From positions 62,001-126,000 of the forward strand of contig NZ_JAGQDF010000001.1 of the NCBI RefSeq assembly GCF_018069875.1: DNA of 64,000 bases. The letters are read 5' to 3'. How positions within the stretch are numbered: position 1 is the stretch's first letter; every line of letters begins with the position of its first letter. The position numbers and the translations under genes were made by a program. This stretch comes from Ideonella alba (lineage in GTDB: Bacteria > Pseudomonadota > Gammaproteobacteria > Burkholderiales > Burkholderiaceae_C). Below the pieces are notes generated by a model. That model had not been told where the DNA came from. It was given only the letters and a program-made list of their open reading frames with translations, and did not search any database. Positions 32,965 through 44,734 of this stretch are shown piece after piece.

Positions 32965-34410
32965 TCAGCGCAGCGCCACGCTGTCGCGCCGCCAGACCGG
33001 ATCGGCCCAGCGCTTGAAGGCCAGCAGCAGGTCCGGCGTCGAGGCCTGCCGCTCCACGCTCAGATCGGCGGTCTGCACCACCTCGAAGCGGCGTTGCCAG
33101 CGGCCGTCGGTGCGGGCTTCGCGGGCCAGCAGCAGACGGGGCGTCGGCTCCGCCGTCCAGCCGGCGGCTTCGACATAGCCCAGGTCCTCCCCCAGCGGGT
33201 TGCCGGCCACCGGTGGCAGCACCTCCAGGGTCCAGCCTTGCGCGGTGCGCCGGGCCAGCCACAGCTCGCGCCAGGTGGCCAGCGGTTGCACGGCGATGGT
33301 CGCTGCCTCGCCCCGGGGGTGGCTGGCCGCCGAAGCGGCCCAGGCCACGCCCCAGGTGCAGCGGCGCAGCAGGGGATCGGCCTCGGCATGCGCTGCATCG
33401 ATGAGCAGCACGCAGGTCTCGCCGGGACGGCCAGGGCGGGTGATGAAGCGCGCGTGGCTGCTGGCCGGCGTCGCGATCGGTGCCTGGGCGGCCCAGCGGC
33501 TGGCGCCAACCCGCACGGCGGCTTCGGTGTAGTCGGCCTGGTCCTCGTCGGGCAACTGGGCCTTGTCCACCGCGGCCAGCGCGGCGCCCGCCTGTTCGCC
33601 GGCGGACCGCATGTCCTCGCCCCGGCGTGCCTGCTGGAAGGCCAGCGCCGACCACACGGCGGCGCGGCGCATCTGCAGCCGCTGGCGCAGCTCGGTGGGC
33701 AGGGTGGCGACGGCGCTGTCGGGCAGGCTGCCCAGCAGCGTGGCGTGCTGGCGCAGTTGGGCGTCCTGCTCCACCACCGGCAGGGCGGGATCGATGCATT
33801 CCGGACGGCTCAGGCCCAGTACGGCGCGGCCGCGTGCTTCCGGGCCGGCTTGCGGCATGGCCAGCACCTGACGCCAGGCCGCACCGTCGTAGCACAGGCG
33901 CATGCGGCCGTCGCGCTCCATCCCCTGCAGGCGCACGCCATAGGCGGCGACCGCGTCGAGCTGGGCGGCCAGGCGAGGGTCGCTGGCGCCGGCCGCGCTG
34001 GCGCGTCGGGCCAGGCGCTCGGCCAGGGTGCCGATCAGCTCGAACGGCTCGCTGCCCAGTTCGCGCGCCGGCACCGCCTGCAGATAGGCCGCCGCGTAGC
34101 CGATGGCCAGCGACTCGGCGCCCGGCTGGTCGCGCAGGAAGCGCAGCACGGCCAGCAGGCCGGGTGCGTCCTGCGGACCGCTGCCGATGACGCGCAGCTG
34201 GCTGCGCTTGACGAAGCCGCCGCGCTCGCGCCGGTGGTCCCAGACCTGCCAGTGGTCCAGGCGTTCGCCGCGCAGCTCCAGCGTGTCGCCGGGTGTCAGC
34301 TGGGCATGCAGGGCGGCGTTGTCGTGCGGGCTGGCACGCAGCGCGGCGCCGTCCGGGCCGACCAGGGCCAGCGCGGCCAGCGTGGCGGCCGCCAGGGTGG
34401 TGGCAGGCAT
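32965..34410 (-). CDS. Secreted protein with N-terminal bacterial SH3-like domain
   Basis: 481 residues. A short signal peptide (ATTLAAATLAALALVGPDGAA) is followed by an SH3b-like domain (LRASPHDNAALHAQLTPGDTLELRGERLDHWQVWDHRRERGGFVKRSQLRVI). The remaining ~400 residues are Ala/Arg/Gln-rich and mostly helical, with no recognised domain. It begins one base after the stop of the SPFH gene, so the two are co-transcribed. SH3b domains often bind cell wall. Confidence 0.75.
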   Translation of the reverse strand: MPATTLAAATLAALALVGPDGAALRASPHDNAALHAQLTPGDTLELRGERLDHWQVWDHRRERGGFVKRSQLRVIGSGPQDAPGLLAVLRFLRDQPGAESLAIGYAAAYLQAVPARELGSEPFELIGTLAERLARRASAAGASDPRLAAQLDAVAAYGVRLQGMERDGRMRLCYDGAAWRQVLAMPQAGPEARGRAVLGLSRPECIDPALPVVEQDAQLRQHATLLGSLPDSAVATLPTELRQRLQMRRAAVWSALAFQQARRGEDMRSAGEQAGAALAAVDKAQLPDEDQADYTEAAVRVGASRWAAQAPIATPASSHARFITRPGRPGETCVLLIDAAHAEADPLLRRCTWGVAWAASAASHPRGEAATIAVQPLATWRELWLARRTAQGWTLEVLPPVAGNPLGEDLGYVEAAGWTAEPTPRLLLAREARTDGRWQRRFEVVQTADLSVERQASTPDLLLAFKRWADPVWRRDSVALR

Positions 34411-34411
34411 C

Positions 34412-35695
34412 TCAGTGCACCTCGTCGGCGTTGTCGGCCGCCGTGTCGGCCGCGGCGGTGGCCACGCTCTTCGGGCCGCCCAGCAGCGCGGCGCCGATGA
34501 AGTCGCCGTTGGCGGGCGGCGGCGCGATGATGACCTGCACCTTGTCGCTGAGCTTGTCGGCCATGGTCTTCTGGATCAGCAGCGGGTGGCGGCTGAGCAG
34601 CGCGCCCTCGCGGGCCATCTGTTCGGCATTGATCTGGCCCACCTTCTGCAGGCGGTAGGCCTCGGCGTCGGCCAGCTTCTGGCGCGAGTCGGCCTCGCCC
34701 TGGCTCTCGATGCGGCGCGCCTGGGCGCTGGCCTCGGCGCCCTTGATGCGGGCGGTCTTCTCGGCCTCGGCCTCCAGCGCGCGCTGCTCGATCTGCTTCT
34801 GCTTGAAGGGCAGCACATGCCGCATGGCCTCCTCCTGGGCCTGGGCCGCGATGACCTGCTCGCGCGCCGCCGCTTCGGCGTCCTTCTCGCGGCGCACCTT
34901 GGCGGCCTGGGCTTCCAGCGCGGTCTGCTCGACCTGCCTTTCCTTCAGCGCCAGCGTGTAGCGCATCTGCTCGGTGGCCAGCTCGGCCGACAGCAGCGCG
35001 TCCATGCCGCGCTTGTAGTCGGCTGGCAGGTCCACCTGTCCAAGCTGGACGCTGCGCAGCAGGATGCCTTCAGCGGCCAGACGGGGCTTCAGCTCGGCCT
35101 CGATCTCGGCCTGGATCTGCGCGCGCTTGGTCGAGAAGATCTCGCGCACCGTGTAGCGCGAGAAGCTCTTGTAGACCACGCCCTGCACCGCCGGCTGGAC
35201 CAGGCCGGCGCCGACGTCCTCCGGCCACCGGGTGGATGCGCTGACCAGTTGGGCCGGGTCCGGCGCGTAGCGCACCGCGATGTCGACGCCCAGCGACAGA
35301 CCCTCGATGCTCTGGAAGGGCGCCGGACCGTCCGCGCGGGCACTGCCGCTGGGGTGGTAGATCGCGTCGCGCAGCGGGTACAGACGCAGCTGGTGCAGGC
35401 CGGGCAGCACCACGGCGCTGCCCTCGCGCAGTTCGGTGATGCCACCGGTCAGCGCATTCGTGCGCAGGCCGACCTCGCCGCGCGGGATCGGCTGCAGCGG
35501 CGGGTGCTGCACCAGCAGCCAGGCCGTGCCGGCCAGCACCGCGCCGCCCAGCCACCAGGCTCGCCCGCCCAGCAGGCCTTGGGTGGCGTGCCGGCCCATT
35601 GCGAGGCTGTGCTGCCAGCCTCGGGTCAGGCCCTGGCCGATGGCGCCGGCCAGGCGGTTCAGGCGGGGAAAACGGGCGGTGCGGGGGGTGTCCAT
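34412..35695 (-). CDS. SPFH/prohibitin (band 7) membrane protein
   Basis: 427 residues from ATG 35695. A Pro/Arg N-terminus and one membrane helix (WWLGGAVLAGTAWLLVQ, about 47-63) precede the SPFH domain (GEVGLRTNALTGGITELREGSAVVLPGLHQLRLYPLRD, SLGVDIAVRYAPDP, VREIFSTKRAQIQAEIEAEL). A long charged coiled coil (about 260-385, KERQVEQTALEAQAAKVRREKDAEAAAREQV) would drive oligomerisation. Likely a membrane microdomain scaffold. Divergent from the two-component genes at 35855. Confidence 0.92.
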   Translation of the reverse strand: MDTPRTARFPRLNRLAGAIGQGLTRGWQHSLAMGRHATQGLLGGRAWWLGGAVLAGTAWLLVQHPPLQPIPRGEVGLRTNALTGGITELREGSAVVLPGLHQLRLYPLRDAIYHPSGSARADGPAPFQSIEGLSLGVDIAVRYAPDPAQLVSASTRWPEDVGAGLVQPAVQGVVYKSFSRYTVREIFSTKRAQIQAEIEAELKPRLAAEGILLRSVQLGQVDLPADYKRGMDALLSAELATEQMRYTLALKERQVEQTALEAQAAKVRREKDAEAAAREQVIAAQAQEEAMRHVLPFKQKQIEQRALEAEAEKTARIKGAEASAQARRIESQGEADSRQKLADAEAYRLQKVGQINAEQMAREGALLSRHPLLIQKTMADKLSDKVQVIIAPPPANGDFIGAALLGGPKSVATAAADTAADNADEVH

Positions 35696-35854
35696 GTGCA
35701 GGCTTCCTTGGGTGGGTGGCCGTGTCCTCACGGCCTGGAAGCCATTCTTCGCAGCCCGCCCGGAAGGCAACAGGCACCGCCGGGGCGTCTTTGCTCCGTT
35801 GCCCGGAAGAAAGCTTCACACCGCCGGCCGCAGGGCACCGGGATAATCAGCCGC

Positions 35855-36547
35855 ATGGTCCGCATCGCCGTCATCGAGGACGATCCCCCCACCAGCCGCC
35901 AGCTCTGCGGCTGGATCGCCGGCGCCCGCCCGGATGCGCAGATCGATTGCTGGTTCGACCGCGACAGCGCCGACGCCGCGCTGGCCCGCGAGCGCTACGA
36001 CCTGGTGCTGCTCGACATCGAACTGGGCCGCGAGCGCAATGCCGGCGTCGCGCTGATCAATGCGATCAACAAGCGCCACGCGGGCACGCCGGTGCTGGTG
36101 GTCTCGGCCATGCCGGCGGCCATCTACCGCAGCATCATGAAGGCGCTGGACGCCTGGGACTACCTGCAGAAATCCACCTTCGAGGAGGCTGACTTCGTCG
36201 AGACCTTCCTGGACATCCTGCGCGCCACGCGTGACCGCACGCCCGCCGCTGCAGCGGCGGCGGCCGACCCCGACGCGGTGCTGATCGACCCGCTGCGCCA
36301 GGGCGCCGCGATCTGGCGCGGCCAGAAGGTCAACCTGCCGCTGACGGCGCAGCGCATCCTGGCCGCGCTGCTGGCGCGCAAGGGCGAGGTGGTCAGCTAC
36401 GACGAGCTTTACCAGGTGGTCAAGAGCGGCCGCAACCGCGACAACATCCGCAAGCACGTCAGCACCATCCGTGATGCCCTGCGCGAGATCGATCCCGCCT
36501 TCGACGGCATCGCCAACATCCCGATGCGCGGGTTCCGCTGGGGATGA
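35855..36547 (+). CDS. OmpR-type response regulator
   Basis: 230 residues from ATG 35855. Receiver domain with VIEDD (6-10), phosphoacceptor D54 in LLDIELG and K106; an Ala/Asp linker (about 125-140); and a winged-helix DNA-binding domain with LTAQRILAALLARKGEVVSYDELYQVV, NIRKHVSTIRDALREID and IPMRGFRWG. Its stop overlaps the start of the histidine kinase gene (ATGA). Confidence 0.93.
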   Translation: MVRIAVIEDDPPTSRQLCGWIAGARPDAQIDCWFDRDSADAALARERYDLVLLDIELGRERNAGVALINAINKRHAGTPVLVVSAMPAAIYRSIMKALDAWDYLQKSTFEEADFVETFLDILRATRDRTPAAAAAAADPDAVLIDPLRQGAAIWRGQKVNLPLTAQRILAALLARKGEVVSYDELYQVVKSGRNRDNIRKHVSTIRDALREIDPAFDGIANIPMRGFRWG

Positions 36548-38586
36548 TCCGCCTGCGCCCGCGCATCCCGCTGCGGTTGCGCTTCTTCTTCCGCGCCGCC
36601 TTCGCGCTGCTGGCGCTGGCCGTGCTGGGACTGGCGCTGACGCTGCTGGCCGAGGAAAAGGAGCGGGCCTGGCGCAGCCGGCGCGACGGTGTGGACCAGA
36701 CGCTGGCGCAGATCGGTGCGAGGCTGCGCCACCCCACCGGCCAGCTGGCCCTGATGAACCCCGAGGCACGGCCCGGGCCGCCGCTGCGGCCGCTGGTGCT
36801 GCCCTTCGGCGCGATCGACTTCGACGACCGCGCCAAGGCACAGCAGGCGGTGGAGATGGCCGGCTGCGCGCTGCAGTACGCCGATGCGGTGCAGCTGTGC
36901 GCGGCGGTGGGCTCCAACCCGGCGGCCGGCGGCTTCCTGTACCTGGTGGGGCAGCTGCCGCTGGGCCCGCTGGCGGCGCGCGCCCCCGGCGACACCGACT
37001 TCAGCCACGCCCACCGCGCCCAGGTGCGGGTGGCGATGCGCGGCCGCGAGTGGCGCTGGCTGGCGCCCTACGAGCTGCCGGCCGATGCCGGGGCCGGTGC
37101 CGGGCGCGGCAAGCTGACCGGCTTCGCGGTCGAGGCCGGCACCGTCGCCGACCGCCCGCAGCGCGACTTCCGCGGCTGGCTGTGGCAGGACGCGCGCTGC
37201 ATCGATGGCGGCAGCGCCGACGACTGCCTGCGGCGCAGCTACTACTCGCTGCGCCTGCCGGTGGAGCTGTTCCGCGAGGACCTGCAGGCCGCGCGCGGCC
37301 GACCGGTCTGGCCGCCGGCCGACCTGGACCGCATCGAGGTGCACCTGCGCCTGCTCGGCCCGGGCGATGACGCCGCGGCGCCGCTGTTCGATTCCGACCA
37401 GCCCGGCGCCACACCGCCCTTCACGCTGGCCGAGCTGGCGCGGCTGCTGCAGCCGGGTGAATCACTGCGGGTGCGGCGTCTGGGGCCGGGCCGTGCCACC
37501 GAGGTGGCGCTGCTCAGTGGGCCGGAGGACCTCGCGCAGCCGCTGTTACCGCTGCTGGAGCGGCTGATTCGCGCCCTGCCGGTGCAGGACAACCCGGCGC
37601 CGCTGCAGGCCAGCGACACCGTGACGACACCCACCGGCCGCTATGAATTGCAGCTGACGGGCGATCGCCGCGGGGTGGATCGCGCCCTGGGCCGCGTCGC
37701 CACCCGCACCGCCTGGTTCGTGGGCGCGCTGCTGCTGGCCATCGGCCTGACCTGGGCGGCGATCGAGCTGCGGGTGATCCGCCGCATCACGCTGCTGACC
37801 CGGCGTGCCGCGGCGGTGCGTCGCGACGTCAAGGAGGGCGGCGAGATCCGCCTCGACGTGGCCGAGCTGCGCGGCAGCGACGAGCTGGGGGTGCTGGCAG
37901 GCACGCTGGCCGAGCTGATGCAGCGCGTCAACGAGGATGTGCACCGCGAGCACATTCGCGCCCGGCAGGAAAAGGACCAGTGGCATGCGGTCGGTCACGA
38001 GATCCTGTCGCCGCTGCAGTCGCTGCTGGCGCTGCACGGCGATCCGGCCGATCCCAGCCACCGCTACATCCAGCGCATGCAGCAGGCGGTGCGCGTGCTG
38101 TACGGCCAGGCCTCGCCGACCGAGGCCTTCCAGGCCACCGCGCTGGGCCTCAGCGCCCTGGACCTGGACCAGTTCCTGCGCCAGGTGGCCGAGAACGCGC
38201 CGCATGCCGGCATCGACGCGGTGGCTTACGAAGGACCCGGTGGTCCGCTGGCGGTGCAGGGCGATGACTACGCGCTGGAGGACGTGGTCACCCACGTGCT
38301 GCGCAATGCCGCGCGCCACCGCTGGCCGGGCACACCGATCACGATGCAACTGCAGCGTGCCGGGCAGCGGGCGGAACTGCGCCTGCACAACCAGGGACCG
38401 CAGATCGAGCCGGCCCAGCTCGAGCGCATCTTCGAGTACGGCGTGTCGGATGCGCCGGCCGATTCGGGCAGCCGGGGCCAGGGCCTGTTCGTCGCCCGCA
38501 CCTGGATGGCCAAGATGGGCGGCACCATCGTGGCCCGCAACGAGGCGGACGGCGTCAGCTTCGTGCTGAGCCTGCCGCTGGCCTGA
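36544..38586 (+). CDS. Membrane sensor histidine kinase
   Basis: 680 residues. Membrane helix 1 (about 15-36), a large periplasmic sensor region (about 37-390) with no recognised fold, helix 2 (about 394-415), a HAMP-like segment (VIRRITLLTRRAAAVRRDVKEGG...), then DHp with AVGHEILSPLQSLLALH (H485) and a compact HATPase domain with N box HVLRNAARHRW and the G box SRGQGLFVARTWM. The lack of a clear DxGxG box makes the ATP lid atypical. Partner of the regulator at 35855. Confidence 0.9.
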   Translation: MIRLRPRIPLRLRFFFRAAFALLALAVLGLALTLLAEEKERAWRSRRDGVDQTLAQIGARLRHPTGQLALMNPEARPGPPLRPLVLPFGAIDFDDRAKAQQAVEMAGCALQYADAVQLCAAVGSNPAAGGFLYLVGQLPLGPLAARAPGDTDFSHAHRAQVRVAMRGREWRWLAPYELPADAGAGAGRGKLTGFAVEAGTVADRPQRDFRGWLWQDARCIDGGSADDCLRRSYYSLRLPVELFREDLQAARGRPVWPPADLDRIEVHLRLLGPGDDAAAPLFDSDQPGATPPFTLAELARLLQPGESLRVRRLGPGRATEVALLSGPEDLAQPLLPLLERLIRALPVQDNPAPLQASDTVTTPTGRYELQLTGDRRGVDRALGRVATRTAWFVGALLLAIGLTWAAIELRVIRRITLLTRRAAAVRRDVKEGGEIRLDVAELRGSDELGVLAGTLAELMQRVNEDVHREHIRARQEKDQWHAVGHEILSPLQSLLALHGDPADPSHRYIQRMQQAVRVLYGQASPTEAFQATALGLSALDLDQFLRQVAENAPHAGIDAVAYEGPGGPLAVQGDDYALEDVVTHVLRNAARHRWPGTPITMQLQRAGQRAELRLHNQGPQIEPAQLERIFEYGVSDAPADSGSRGQGLFVARTWMAKMGGTIVARNEADGVSFVLSLPLA

Positions 38587-39045: not shown

Positions 39046-39103
39046 GGGTTGAGCTTAGCGAATCGCGTGCCTGCGTGGCCCGGTATTGCGACAATCTTGC
39101 GCC

Positions 39104-39784
39104 ATGAACGCTCCGATGACCCGACGGGATGCCGAGTTCACGCGCCTGTTCTCGGCCGACGCCACCGGCGCACTGATCGACCCCCACGGCCGCACCCGCG
39201 CGCTGGTGCTGGACTGGCCCGCCCCGGCCGACTGGGCGGCCATGGGCACGCTGTGGCGCGGTGTGCAGGACACGCTGGGCTGGCCGGCGCCGGCGATCGC
39301 GGTGTCGGGCGACGCGCTGCAGCTGTGGTTCTCGCTGGCCGAGCCGGTGGACGCCGCCACCGCGCAGGCCCTGCTGGCCGCGCTGCGCGAACGCTTCCTG
39401 CCGGCGTCCCAGGCCGCCCGGGTGGGCGGCTGGCCGCGCGACGGTCAGGCCGCGCCGCGACCCGGGGCTGTGCTGCCTGGCGAGGACCGCTGGTCGGCCT
39501 TCGTGGCGCCCGACCTGGCGCCGCTGTTCGCCCAGACGCCCTGGCTGGACGTGCCGCCCGGCGACGACGGCCAGGCCACGCTGCTGGCCGGCCTGGGCAG
39601 CGTGTCGGCCGATCGGCTGACGCCGCTGCAGCCGACGGCCCAGCCCGCGGCCACAGCGGTCACGGCGGTCACGGCGGTCACCGCCGCGACCGACCCGCGG
39701 GCCTTCCTGCTGCAGGTGATGAATGATCCGGCGGTGCCGCTGGCGCTGCGCATCGACGCCGCCAAGGCCCTGCTGCCGCGCTGA
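39104..39784 (+). CDS. Hypothetical protein; its 3' end is duplicated at 44516-44734
   Basis: 226 residues from ATG 39104. No known domain is recognised; the central part (ALVLDWPAPADWAAMGTLWRGVQDTLGWPAPAIAVSGDALQLWFSLAEPVDAATAQALLAALRERFL) looks like a primase/AEP-type or replication-associated fold in style, but this is weak. A linker with three Ala-Val-Thr repeats precedes the conserved tail DPRAFLLQVMNDPAVPLALR. The last ~75 codons recur as a remnant after the giant gene that follows. Confidence 0.7.
   Translation: MNAPMTRRDAEFTRLFSADATGALIDPHGRTRALVLDWPAPADWAAMGTLWRGVQDTLGWPAPAIAVSGDALQLWFSLAEPVDAATAQALLAALRERFLPASQAARVGGWPRDGQAAPRPGAVLPGEDRWSAFVAPDLAPLFAQTPWLDVPPGDDGQATLLAGLGSVSADRLTPLQPTAQPAATAVTAVTAVTAATDPRAFLLQVMNDPAVPLALRIDAAKALLPR
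39557..39784 (+). repeat. Left copy of a ~220-bp imperfect direct repeat
   Basis: The final 76 codons of the gene at 39104 match 44516-44734 in the same orientation and frame. The last 30 codons differ by one residue (Gln to Pro). The copies differ by nine bases in the Ala/Val/Thr linker, the size of one tandem unit. The pair flanks the 39960-44441 gene. Confidence 0.9.
39656..39682 (+). repeat. Three 9-bp tandem units
   Basis: GCGGTCACG repeated three times (last unit ends in CC) encodes the AVT-AVT-AVT linker. Absent from the right-hand duplicate, so likely a slippage site. Confidence 0.8.
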
Positions 39785-39887
39785 CGCGTTGCCCGGTGGC
39801 CGCAGGCGGCGTCGCATCCGTCGTCGGCCGGGGACCCGGCACAGCCAGCGCTAACGGCGCTAATCGCCAGCGCGGCTCGCGGATTCC

Positions 39888-39893
39888 TATACT
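39888..39893 (+). promoter_or_regulatory. Candidate -10 element and repeat upstream of the giant gene
   Basis: TATACT stands out in very GC-rich DNA 66 bases before ATG 39960. The -35 position (around 39865-39870) matches consensus poorly. Two direct copies of GCGCTAA (about 39849-39864) lie just upstream and could bind an activator. A GAGGAG ribosome binding site sits before the start codon. Confidence 0.45.
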
Positions 39894-39959
39894 GCCGCTG
39901 GACAGCGGGCGCGCCAGTCTCCGGCGGGGCCTGCCCCACTTCGTACGAGGAGCGATGCC

Positions 39960-42900
39960 ATGGCCGATTACCTGTCCGAGAGCGAGTGGAAAAAGGAGCT
40001 CAAGAAGCACGACAAGCTGTCCGCCACGGGCCTCTCCGAATTGCTGCGCGACATCGACAAATGCGCTGCCCGGAAGGACCATGCGGGCCAGCTGAAGGCC
40101 CTCGACGAGCTGCGCGACAAGGTCGGCAAGCTGCGCGCCAAGCAGTCCTCGAACAAGGAGCTGTGCAAATACCTCGACGCGATGCTGGCGGCGATCAAGG
40201 ACGCCGAAAAGCAGGTCGAGAAGCGCCTGGAGGACGACGACAGCGAGGTTGACGAGGGCGCCAAGCTCGGCGAGCTGCTGCTGGCGGTGCTGCCCCGGGT
40301 GCGGCGACTGAAGGTCGAGGCCCCCTGGCACTTTGTCGTCGCCCAGGGCAAGCCGCCCGGACTGTTCATCTCGCGCACCGCGATCTCACCCGCCCATGTG
40401 CAGCGGGCCAAGGACGCGCGCACCGGCAGCGGTGCCATCCTCAAGGGCGACTGCTACGGGGAGGAAGGCATCACTGTCTTCGATCTGCTGGAGCAGGTGC
40501 CGCCGCCGGGTCTGGGCAAGCGGCTCAAGGAGGCGATCAAGGCGCTCACGGGCCTCAATGTCAAGCTGGTGGTGCGCGGGGGCGGGGCCCAGATCGACGA
40601 TGAGCTCGACGAGGACGATCCGGGCGTGTCCAACCCGCAGCCGCTGTACGGTGAACAGGCCAACCAGGAGCAGGCCTACCGACAGCTGCTGCAGGAGGTG
40701 GCGCCGCTGCTCAATGCCGCACTGGTGGCGCCGGACGCGCCCGCCGATGCGCTGCGCCAGGCCTTCACCGAGGCCGGCCGGCTGGCTGGCGAACGCCGTT
40801 TTGGCGATGCGCTCGCGCCGCTGCGCGAGGTCCTGGAATCCGCCCGGGATGCGCTGGCTGCCGCCACACGCCACGTCACCGACTGGGCGCAGCCGCAGGC
40901 ACTGGAGCTGTCGCAGCTCAAGGCTGCAGGGTCACCCCACCTGGCGGAGCTGACCCGGCTGATGCAGGCGGCGCTGGAACATGCCCGCGGTCGTCGCTGG
41001 AGCGAAGCGGTCACCGCGATGGAGGACTTCGACGCGCTGCTGATCCGCGCCCGCACCGAGGCCCGCGCGCCCGAGCTGTCGCGCGCGAGCCAGGGGCATG
41101 CCGACGAGCGCCAACGCCAGCTGTTCAGCGACTGGGCCAATGGCCTGGCGCCGGAGCTGTTGCGCCTGAAGAACGGCAGCCACCCCGATATCGAGACGAT
41201 TGCCGCGGCAGTCAAGCAGGCCCTGGAGCAATCGGCCAAGGGTGATTTCGAGACCGCTGCCCGCCTGATGGACGGCGCCAACGACAAGCTGCTGGCGGCC
41301 CTGACCGATCAGCGCAGCGACGAGGTCCGGCAGTCCACGGCGCAGGCGTTCAGTGAGCAGACGGCCTTCTTCACGGAGTGGGCCAAGGGCACGACGGCGT
41401 CGCTGACCGAGCTCAAGCTGGGCGGCGCCCCGGGCCTGGCCGAGATCGGCGAGCTGATCAAGGCGACGCTCGAGGCCGCCCGGCAGCACCGCTGGGACGA
41501 CGCGGTGCAGGCCATGCAGGACGCCGATGCGCTGATCGCCGAGGCGCTGCGGACCCTCAGTGCAAGCCGCGTGCTGGCCGACCTCGACCAACCCCGCGAT
41601 GAGGCCGAGAGGCTCTACCGCACGCGTCGTCAGGCGCTGGAGGAGCGGCTTCAGCGCGCCCGCACGGATCCCGCGATCCAGGGACCGGCCAAGGCGTTGT
41701 TCGATGGCATCGACGAGGCCGTCGCCCAGGGCCAGTTCGTTGTCGCGCTGAACCAGCTCAACCAGTTGGTGGCGCTTTGCCAGGAGCGCGGCAGCACGCT
41801 GCGCCAGACGCTGGCGGAGCTGTACGACAGCGCTGACCCGAATGTCTGGCCCCTGTCGATGGACAAGGATGCCGACCGCTGGCGCAACGACATCACGCGC
41901 CTGCTCAAGGACTGGGACCTGGGCACCGCCGCCGCCGAGCTGGCGAAGTTCCGCGAGGCGATCCAGGTGGCCAAGCGGGCGTTGCCGGTGGACTTCACCG
42001 AGATGCGCGACCTGCGCGATCTAGAAACCCGGCACCGCAACGCCGGCCTGCAGAACGCGGCCTTCGCGCGCAACACCGAGCAGTCGCGCAGCGCCGCCTT
42101 GCGCATCGTGCGCGAGGACGGCACGCTGTCGATCGACCAACTGCCCGAGTTGATGCGCGACCTGCCGTTCTCGCGCTCCGACGAGAGCCTGGGCGCGGTG
42201 CTCGAGGACATGGGCGAGAGTGGGGTCGACCACCTGCCGCCGTCCAAGCACACCCGGCGCATGCTTGAGCGCCTGCGTGACGAGCCCGAACTGCGCGAAG
42301 CGCTGATGGCGATCCGGGCGCCGGCCCCCGAGAGTCCGGCGAGCGACATGATCCGGGCGACCCTGGGACTGCCCAACGATGCGGTGCTGACCGATGCCCA
42401 TGCGCGCCGTGCCGCCACGGCGGCGCTGCTGAGCCAACTGCGCCAGTCGGACGCCGGCTCGTGCTTTGCGACCTCGGTGGCGATCGGCGCGCAGACGCGC
42501 AACCCCGCGCGCTTTCTGCAGGACCTGCAGTCGCTGTTCAGCAGCGGCAAGATCACCCGCACGCTCAACGGCAAGCCGGTCGAAGCCCGGTTGAACCTGG
42601 ACATGAGCACCACCGACCTGGAGAAGGTTCAGCCGGTGCGCCGGGAGGCGTCGGGTCTGGACAAGACGCCGGCCTTCATGGCCGTGCTCCATGCACTGGG
42701 CCTGCCGCCCAAGGAGCATGCCGGCGCGATCGACCGGGCCCTGGCTGAGCTGCTGGGCGGCGCCGACCAGGGTGATCTGGCGCCGCAGACCATCATCGCC
42801 ACCCTGGTCAAGCAGCAGAAGGCCGCGCGCCAACTGGGCGATGAGGACGCGAAGAAGCTGGACAACGCGGCACGCACCGCCTTCCAGGGCCAGCAGGACA

Positions 42901-44441
42901 ACCGACTGCTGCGGGCCTGGGAGTACACCGTGGCCTCGTTGGTCGAGGATGACTCGCGGTCGCAGTCACGCACCCAGACCTTGCGCGCGACCGCCTCGTC
43001 CGACCTTACCTCGCAACTGTTGACCTCCGCGAACGCGACACTGACCAGCGGCGGCTCGGGCGGAGCCAATGCGCAGCAGGTCTTCAATGCGCTGCGTGGC
43101 GAAATGAGTCGGCTCGTGGGGACGCGGCTGAAGGCCGTCTACGATGCATCGACCAAGACGGCGCCCGCCCCCGACGGATCGTCCAGCCGCGGCGTCTGGG
43201 CGCTGCTGGACAGCGAGACCGGGACCAAGCTGGGCGATCCGGCCAGCTACAAGAAGTCGCTCGATGCGATCGCGCGCCAGGCCCTGGCGGTGTTTCCATC
43301 CGATCCGGAGCGCGCACTGGCGCAGCGCTTCGTCGACCGGCTGGTGGCCGACCTCGCGCCCGCGAAGGCGCCCCAAGGCGGCGGCGGGCATGGCTCGCGT
43401 GACATGATCAGCGTGTTCTACGGGCACGACACGGCGATCGAGGTCGAGGACATCACCAACCCGACGCCCGACCAGCTGATGACCTGGGTGATCGGCCGCA
43501 GCGATGCGATGCACAAGAGCCACGGGAAGGACTTCAGCGAGCAGCCGGAGTCGTCCGGCACGCTGATGCGCAACAGCATCCACGCCTTCAACTTCCGTCC
43601 CGGGACGGCAGGACTGCGGGACATGGCCGGCGAAGGCGATGCCACGCCGCAGGAGAAGGCCGAACAGTTCAAGAAGGACGAGAAGGCGCGCAATCGGGTG
43701 CTGCGCGCGGTCAGCCTGCCGTTGAATGACCCGATCGATGGCCCGGTCCAGCAGATCGTGGACGATGCGATCAGTTGGTACAACTCCACAACGCGGGCCA
43801 GCGTCCGAGCGACGATCCAGAACAAGCTGCGGGCCCTGGGCAAGCGTGAGGTCAGTGCCGGCTGGCTGGCCAAGGTGATCGAGGCTGCGGTGGACGAGAC
43901 TGAGCCCACGCACGCCAATGTCGCGAAGCGCAAGAAGAAGGCCATGGGCAACCTGTCCAGGTCGGTGATGGCCCGCGTGGCCCCCCCGGTGCCTGCGTCG
44001 GAGGTCGACGGACGGCTGGACGAGGTACTGGGAGCACTGAAGGTGCCGCAGGACCAACTGGCCGAGGGCAAGAAGAAGGCCCTGGCACGTCTGCCCAAGG
44101 GCAAGGACGCCGGGATGAGCGTGCTCAAGGACGCGGTCGACGCCGCCCTCAACGAGCAGGGCGTGCCGCGCAGCGACGACAACAGCGGCCACCGCATCTT
44201 CGAGGCCCTCAAGCCCAAGCCGTCGCTCAAGGGACTGGTGTTCGCCGACACCAACTGGGGCGACGGTGACCATGTCACCATGATGACGTGGATCCTCAAT
44301 CCGGTGACGGACGAGGTGGAACTGTGGGCGATGAACGAGGATGGCAGTGGCGCCCATCAACTGGAGCACGACGACTGGATCAAGGGCACCAACTGGTCCG
44401 TGCCGAAGGATCCTTCACAGGTGGGAGGCGTGCGCGGTTGA
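39960..44441 (+). CDS. Giant helical-repeat protein with papain-like cysteine peptidase motif
   Basis: 1493 residues with no signal peptide or membrane helix. Residues 1-100 are charged and helical (KKELKKHDKLSATGLSELLRDIDKCAARKDHAGQLKALDELRDK). Residues ~118-215 form an alpha/beta domain (PWHFVVAQGKPPGLFISRTAISPAHVQRAK, ILKGDCYGEEGITVF, GLNVKLVVRGGG). Three tandem ~82-residue repeats begin with a WA motif at residues 309, 392 and 474 (each about Trp-Ala, then LxxLKxxGxPxLxEI, then ALExAxxxxWxxAVxxM); related units flank them. Q829-SDAG-SC835-FATS is a good papain-type oxyanion-Gln/catalytic-Cys motif. A candidate catalytic His is H1438 (TNWGDGDHVTMMTWILNP), with N1447 or N1459 as third residue, leaving a ~600-residue insertion. 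I infer a cysteine-peptidase effector or toxin. Flanked by direct repeats. Confidence 0.8.
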   Translation: MADYLSESEWKKELKKHDKLSATGLSELLRDIDKCAARKDHAGQLKALDELRDKVGKLRAKQSSNKELCKYLDAMLAAIKDAEKQVEKRLEDDDSEVDEGAKLGELLLAVLPRVRRLKVEAPWHFVVAQGKPPGLFISRTAISPAHVQRAKDARTGSGAILKGDCYGEEGITVFDLLEQVPPPGLGKRLKEAIKALTGLNVKLVVRGGGAQIDDELDEDDPGVSNPQPLYGEQANQEQAYRQLLQEVAPLLNAALVAPDAPADALRQAFTEAGRLAGERRFGDALAPLREVLESARDALAAATRHVTDWAQPQALELSQLKAAGSPHLAELTRLMQAALEHARGRRWSEAVTAMEDFDALLIRARTEARAPELSRASQGHADERQRQLFSDWANGLAPELLRLKNGSHPDIETIAAAVKQALEQSAKGDFETAARLMDGANDKLLAALTDQRSDEVRQSTAQAFSEQTAFFTEWAKGTTASLTELKLGGAPGLAEIGELIKATLEAARQHRWDDAVQAMQDADALIAEALRTLSASRVLADLDQPRDEAERLYRTRRQALEERLQRARTDPAIQGPAKALFDGIDEAVAQGQFVVALNQLNQLVALCQERGSTLRQTLAELYDSADPNVWPLSMDKDADRWRNDITRLLKDWDLGTAAAELAKFREAIQVAKRALPVDFTEMRDLRDLETRHRNAGLQNAAFARNTEQSRSAALRIVREDGTLSIDQLPELMRDLPFSRSDESLGAVLEDMGESGVDHLPPSKHTRRMLERLRDEPELREALMAIRAPAPESPASDMIRATLGLPNDAVLTDAHARRAATAALLSQLRQSDAGSCFATSVAIGAQTRNPARFLQDLQSLFSSGKITRTLNGKPVEARLNLDMSTTDLEKVQPVRREASGLDKTPAFMAVLHALGLPPKEHAGAIDRALAELLGGADQGDLAPQTIIATLVKQQKAARQLGDEDAKKLDNAARTAFQGQQDNRLLRAWEYTVASLVEDDSRSQSRTQTLRATASSDLTSQLLTSANATLTSGGSGGANAQQVFNALRGEMSRLVGTRLKAVYDASTKTAPAPDGSSSRGVWALLDSETGTKLGDPASYKKSLDAIARQALAVFPSDPERALAQRFVDRLVADLAPAKAPQGGGGHGSRDMISVFYGHDTAIEVEDITNPTPDQLMTWVIGRSDAMHKSHGKDFSEQPESSGTLMRNSIHAFNFRPGTAGLRDMAGEGDATPQEKAEQFKKDEKARNRVLRAVSLPLNDPIDGPVQQIVDDAISWYNSTTRASVRATIQNKLRALGKREVSAGWLAKVIEAAVDETEPTHANVAKRKKKAMGNLSRSVMARVAPPVPASEVDGRLDEVLGALKVPQDQLAEGKKKALARLPKGKDAGMSVLKDAVDAALNEQGVPRSDDNSGHRIFEALKPKPSLKGLVFADTNWGDGDHVTMMTWILNPVTDEVELWAMNEDGSGAHQLEHDDWIKGTNWSVPKDPSQVGGVRG

Positions 44442-44515
44442 GGCCGCGCCGCTGACCTGACATCGCCCACCAGGGCGCTGGCGCAGCAGGGGCGGGGTGA
44501 CGGCCTGCCGCGCTG

Positions 44516-44734
44516 CCCGGCGACGCCCGCCAGGCCACGCTGCCGGCCGGCCTGGGCAGCGTGGCGCCCGATCGGCTGACGCCGCCGCGGCCGCCGGCCC
44601 AGCCCGCGGCGGTACCGGTCGCAGCCGCCGCCGACACCGCCGACCCGCGGGCCTTCCTGCTGCCCGTGATGAACGATCCGGCGGTGCCGTTGGCGCTGCG
44701 CATCGACGCGGCCAAGGCCCTGCTGCCGCGCTGA
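44516..44734 (+). pseudogene. 3' fragment of the 39104-39784 gene (right direct repeat)
   Basis: An in-frame copy of the end of the 39104 gene (PGDARQATLPAGLGSV, then a changed linker, then DPRAFLLPVMNDPAVPLALR) preceded in frame by a TGA at 44498-44500 and without its own start. It is a gene remnant. The surrounding 44442-44810 gap (369 bases) contains nothing else I can support. Confidence 0.85.

Follow-up and report, generated by a model that had tools for sequence, protein, structure and literature searches.

Recruitment domains of the T6SS occur both as stand-alone proteins and fused to toxins; those covered in the accessible part of PMC10673891 include MIX, FIX-like, DUF2345, LysM and PG_binding_1, among others, and the occurrence of one domain in both arrangements serves as a criterion in that source. 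Papain-like cysteine proteases are found among the toxins of the T6SS, e.g. Cpe1, EvpQ and TsaP, which are close to the ComA/LahT peptidases; Cpe1 has a cognate immunity protein, and papain-like proteases are defined by a triad of Cys, His and Asp/Asn (PMC12136450, accessible part).

The locus described here lies in a 64-kb window, i.e. the whole stretch of DNA that was analysed, and encodes a protein of 1493 residues. On balance, comparison of sequences indicates that this protein is probably a single-gene effector of T6SS type, in which a recruitment domain is joined to a papain-like cysteine hydrolase with C835, H1208 and D1430/N1432 as candidate triad. As with the MIX and FIX-like domains treated in the accessible part of PMC10673891, its N-terminal module (N-module) is separate, before a large gene, in a relative (locus L110) and fused N-terminally in the window gene. 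It differs from these and the other domains listed there in that no common sequence family was found, and in that the window gene lies outside a vgrG locus, with no VgrG among its direct neighbours. Because no VgrG adjoins it and the T6SS genes of the same genome are on another contig, the N-module is not filed under the vgrG-locus recruitment type. In common with Cpe1, EvpQ and TsaP, as they appear in the accessible part of PMC12136450, this T6SS-linked protein has a proposed Cys-His-Asp/Asn triad; unlike them, it has a Cys-His spacing of 373 residues, no match to a PDB chain and no evident immunity gene adjoining it.

The gene and its insertion site

39960–44441, + strand: 1493-aa protein, with N-module, repeat region and papain-like C-terminal region; ORF with no family above cut-off
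40876–41616, + strand: internal repeats of about 82–83 aa, about residues 306–552 (end approximate); three 47-nt copies
39104–39784, + strand: upstream 226-aa gene, its 3' end duplicated around the insert; no family above cut-off
39543–39784, + strand: left direct-repeat copy, about 96% identical to G014
39785–44508, unstranded: segment that the same-genus genome G014 lacks here
44502–44734, + strand: right direct-repeat copy, partial and diverged, about 87% identical to G014

The initial annotation had placed here an ORF of 1493 aa with Q829 and C835 in the motif QSDAGSCFATS, and both are real: the gene is a single, uninterrupted ATG ORF with a third-position GC of 0.89 and a GC content of 68.5%, against 71.8% for the window. 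By eye, the product has no secretion signal. The 47-nt repeat copies start at 40876, 41125 and 41371 (spacing 249 and 246 nt), and the second and third share 70% and 62% identity with the first, which is modest evidence suggesting an 82–83-aa repeat. The gene is flanked by the 226-aa gene upstream and an ABM-domain gene downstream, neither of which is a T6SS gene. Further upstream, the window encodes a response regulator and sensor kinase pair (34103–38586); the best NCBIfam match of the regulator, far below cut-off, is a marine proteobacterial sortase-system regulator.

In G014, the counterpart of position 39784 joins that of 44735, and the 3' end of the upstream gene is present in a single copy. 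The simplest reading of these sequences would be import of the cassette by recombination from a diverged relative; it is preferred to loss from G014 because loss leaves the diverged, partial copy unexplained. G014 carries an insert of its own, of 7.6 kb (L061:1995-9581), beside the same 226-aa gene and facing window positions 39071–39165, in which a TonB-receptor-like and two lipoprotein-like ORFs were recognized by eye. The site beside the 226-aa gene may be an insertion hotspot.

The N-module and its link to the T6SS

39960–40643, + strand: N-module, residues 1–228, probable recruitment domain; alignments A1 and A2; this copy scored E 1.2e-70 in the profile search

When residues ~4–300 were compared with 399 genomes of the same family, five other genomes matched at E<=3e-13 and two more weakly (E 0.001 and 0.007). 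The module so delimited comprises about 228 residues, with W10, L48, G184, K187 and K202 invariant in 14 aligned sequences. Its profile found 10 loci in genome_contigs, by title from Aquabacterium, Roseateles, Aquariibacter, Pseudorhodoferax, Pelomonas and a Burkholderiaceae MAG. Among 329 genomes of the family, 23 matched at E<=1e-3, of which 12, including the own genome with its four copies, did so at E<=1e-9; the other 11 (E 6.9e-5 to 9.7e-4, over ~55 profile positions) were set aside as coiled-coil noise and left out of the T6SS test. In Burkholderiales the module resides mostly in separate proteins, and those scanned have no enzyme family; in the window gene it is fused to a large protein. 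No description of it was found in titles and abstract openings of the literature outside subscription journals. Its structure model (pLDDT 70.1, pTM 0.41) consists of a helical bundle and an alpha/beta part, and gave no informative structural match. The N-module is probably a domain for recruiting cargo.

The own genome encodes a T6SS, with two matches to PF05943 (sheath) on contig C9; the window gene lies elsewhere, on another contig. Within this T6SS cluster, three consecutive genes encode an N-module protein, an HExxH protein of 1044 aa and a CpXC protein. PF05943 was found in 11/11 other N-module genomes (12/12 clear N-module genomes with the own genome counted in) vs 3/11 genomes free of the module, the latter being the first listed without a profile match (G023, 65% complete, was skipped); these counts ignore kinship, and some of the 11 N-module genomes belong to the same genus. 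Two same-genus genomes have a T6SS and no N-module match. A second, weaker PF05943 match was present in all 11 other N-module genomes (E 1e-39 to 5e-31) and in none of the 11 controls; in the own genome it corresponds to a 596-aa protein on contig C9 (L055:16079-17869) with VipA- and VipB-like parts. T6SS structural genes occur within the stretch at 7/32 N-module loci, and a T6SS gene or a kinase resembling the one in the own T6SS cluster at 12/32, the remaining 20 stretches having neither. Pfam backs TssM, TagF, VipA/VipB, the kinase, DUF4280 and CpXC in the scanned proteins; the remaining T6SS gene names are those that we gave to genes of the own cluster and then transferred to other loci by BLAST.

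Genes adjoining the module elsewhere were counted over 32 loci with 34 N-module genes besides the window's, several loci being from the same genome. A same-strand gene of at least 300 aa follows within 450 nt in 22 cases; the other 12 N-module genes, and the window gene, have no such follower. HExxH motifs, which are pattern matches only, adjoin N-module genes at 10/32 loci, nine of them with a CpXC gene; the pattern is present at 12, and L099 and L103 were excluded since their ORFs are not beside the N-module gene. Kinase-like loops adjoin N-module genes at two loci, a further such pattern in L035 being excluded as a chance match. Pfam placed three of 26 large neighbouring proteins above cut-off and most were unmatched. 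A FAD-binding match was obtained in L105 (5e-9), the LanM-like DUF4135 in L097 (2.5e-21), patatin in L106 (1.6e-23; upstream of its N-module gene) and a PI3/PI4 kinase match in L039 (1e-5, just below cut-off).

A short start similar to 'LT..Q..FL..LLGV' was noticed by eye in L110_1078, L105_1140, L055_1044, L111_1050, L039_693, L106_708, L096 (three genes), L107_902, L098_855 and L013b_1071; such a start on otherwise different proteins could be an adaptor-binding or export signal. At L096:8414-16116, on contig C22 of the own genome, an N-module gene is followed by alternating HExxH and CpXC genes (three and two, respectively). The arrangement resembles an effector-immunity array, and CpXC might be the immunity protein in it.

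The C-terminal region and a candidate catalytic triad

42267–44438, + strand: C-terminal region, residues 770–1493, putative papain-like cysteine hydrolase; homologous to the second half of the L110 1078-aa protein
42444–42476, + strand: QSDAGSCFATS, residues 829–839, containing Q829 and C835, the latter the candidate nucleophile; the homologue has Q594 and C600
43581–43583, + strand: H1208, candidate catalytic His; pairs with H864 of the homologue
44247–44258, + strand: D1430-T-N1432-W1433, candidate third catalytic residue; D1027, N1029 and W1030 in the homologue
44271–44273, + strand: H1438, catalytic His of the earlier proposal; Asn in the homologue, not conserved

Members of the papain family (C1) have a Gln six residues before the Cys, a GSC core and an Asn-Trp-Gly motif after the His; their Cys active-site signature has Tyr or Trp after the Cys, and D-x-N-W-G resembles the N-S-W-G of papain. 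The 1493-aa protein likewise has a Gln six before the Cys, the GSC core and Asn-Trp-Gly after the His, but it differs in the Phe after the Cys, a far longer spacing and the lack of Pfam detection. The strict signature finds no match in it, so the protein is not filed under family C1. With Phe permitted, there is one match, and 3/20,000 shuffles of the protein match too (~1.5e-4 per protein), a rate at which one chance match per whole genome is unsurprising; no other gene matches among 1418 distinct ORFs of at least 100 aa from the window and the other loci read. The motif is thus suggestive of a papain-like enzyme, short of proof. C835 is the sole Cys beyond residue 607.

A relative of the C-terminal region was found in genome G154 (L110), where the gene for a 521-aa N-module protein ends 12 nt before that for a protein of 1078 aa. 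The second half of this larger protein is homologous to residues 770–1493 (BLAST E 1e-7, one-to-one; 27% identity), at 49.7 bits vs at most 35.8 among shuffles, 428/500 of which matched at all. In nine of nine alignment runs, all by one program and so not independent, this homologue keeps Q829, C835, H1208, D1430, N1432 and W1433, and has Asn at H1438, Asp at N1447 and Thr or Val at N1459. It has only two His beyond its Cys, H648 and H864, and the Cys-His spacing is very long in both proteins (264 residues in the homologue). C835-H1208-D1430/N1432 is therefore the better candidate triad, being kept in the homologue, whereas the H1438, N1447 and N1459 put forward in the initial annotation as catalytic partners are replaced in the sole homologue found and were not confirmed. 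In both sequences, a Gln lies shortly before the candidate nucleophilic Cys (Q829/C835 and Q594/C600), and a conserved His and then Asn/Asp come after it, as in clan CA; residue conservation rests on these two sequences, as the searches brought up no second homologue of the C-terminal region. The earlier label 'papain-like' is thus supported at the level of motifs (Q-xxx-GSCF, the conserved His and D-x-N-W-G), the fold itself being putative; the structure model of residues 770–1493 (pLDDT 36.6, pTM 0.27, from a two-row alignment) was not used. Nor was it confirmed that the final 70 residues are rich in beta structure, a feature based only on a model with pLDDT mostly <50.

Other searches yielded little. 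Pfam, NCBIfam and PADLOC gave no family at cut-off or with a convincing E-value for the 1493-aa protein, PADLOC none even at E<=1, and PHROGs none. In the PDB, the whole protein had no sequence match and its parts had chance-level matches only. Of 60 relatives' genomes, the one matched by the whole protein was its own; its patterns recovered no relatives in genome_contigs, and the full sequence had no matches in phages or viral contigs and two weak ones in plasmids (E 0.6), beneath a transposase gene. C-terminal pieces matched 15/399 genomes of the order at E<=0.1, itself included (best non-self 0.003), 8/369 of the class at E<=0.01, itself included (best non-self 1.7e-4, with two internal stops), and 1/378 of the phylum, namely itself. 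The last 99 aa found nothing in viral contigs or plasmids, alignment A3 nothing in viral contigs, and the 1078-aa protein nothing in plasmids; among 16 chosen genomes, A3 matched only the own genome and G154, which alone represents its genus in the genomes searched. Such absences are weak, because in the large genome sets two to three candidates were scored per genome and the G154 relative surfaced only via the N-module profile.

Proposed role and alternative explanations

In the mechanism proposed, the N-module (residues 1–228) would recruit cargo to the secretion machine of the same cell, and the repeat region would act as a spacer or docking scaffold. Residues 770–1493 would be a cysteine hydrolase of papain-like (clan CA) type and, most likely, a peptidase. 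Its nucleophile would be C835, with Q829 forming the oxyanion hole, H1208 acting as base and either D1430 or N1432 completing the triad; long insertions would separate Q829/C835, H1208 and D1430/N1432. The N-module and effector genes that are split in the relative would be fused in the window gene, which was presumably acquired as a cassette, apart from the T6SS cluster on contig C9. Injection, a papain-like fold and proteolysis are thus what we infer from the sequence. No immunity gene is evident nearby, so the target could, as a guess, be non-bacterial. The initial suggestion of an effector or toxin candidate gains from a module common to T6SS-linked genes and from a split homologue that keeps Q829 and C835; the single homologue of the C-terminal region, the unusable model and the lack of a strict papain signature count against the mechanism as a whole, as do the N-module genes without a large follower, the 20/32 stretches free of T6SS genes and T6SS-type kinases, the position of the window gene away from the T6SS contig, the few Pfam matches among large neighbours and the two same-genus genomes with a T6SS but no N-module match.

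The same T6SS link could apply to a protein that is not injected. N-module proteins would then be cytosolic scaffolds or loaders, and the 1493-aa protein would be one such loader, equipped with its own processing or regulatory peptidase and retained in the producer. The absence of an enzyme family from the stand-alone N-module proteins scanned, the position of N-module genes directly upstream of large genes and their occurrence with T6SS genomes all agree with such a role, but the split homologue has its cysteine domain on the follower rather than on the N-module protein, and the neighbours include unrelated kinds of enzyme, as cargo would; a loader is accordingly regarded as rather unlikely. 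A shade more doubtful is the idea that the C-terminal region, instead of being a peptidase, is an inactive relative or a cysteine enzyme of another kind (transglutaminase, acyltransferase, amidase or deamidase). No recognizable peptidase family, Phe instead of Tyr/Trp after the Cys and the very long Cys-His spacings (373 and 264) speak for it, and are set against the retention in the homologue of Q-xxx-GSC and of the order Cys, His, Asp/Asn.

A defence role inside the cell, against phages or otherwise, akin to the self/non-self defence raised in the initial annotation, would fit a large, modular accessory gene that a close relative lacks at this position. It is nevertheless very improbable: PADLOC has no match, T6SS genes lie in 7/32 N-module stretches and the module is associated with genomes that have a T6SS.

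The effector reading may belong to a wider pattern, offered tentatively and with less confidence than the reading itself. The N-module and the second, fused VipA-VipB-like sheath protein could together mark an undescribed cargo-loading system of Burkholderiales T6SSs, whose cargo would be helical-repeat proteins of very large size that bear diverse enzymes; the window gene would be a self-loading, one-gene member with a new papain-like lineage. If so, the tie to the second sheath-like protein would point to a subtype of T6SS with a testable cargo route. If the effector reading is correct, the 1493-aa protein would add a new branch to a known kind of weapon, in which a probable docking domain, also present in other candidate weapons, is fused to what is probably a cysteine-protease-like enzyme, with a specific catalytic triad that can be tested, and the N-module would provide a sequence handle for T6SS-linked candidate effectors, most of them unnamed by Pfam.
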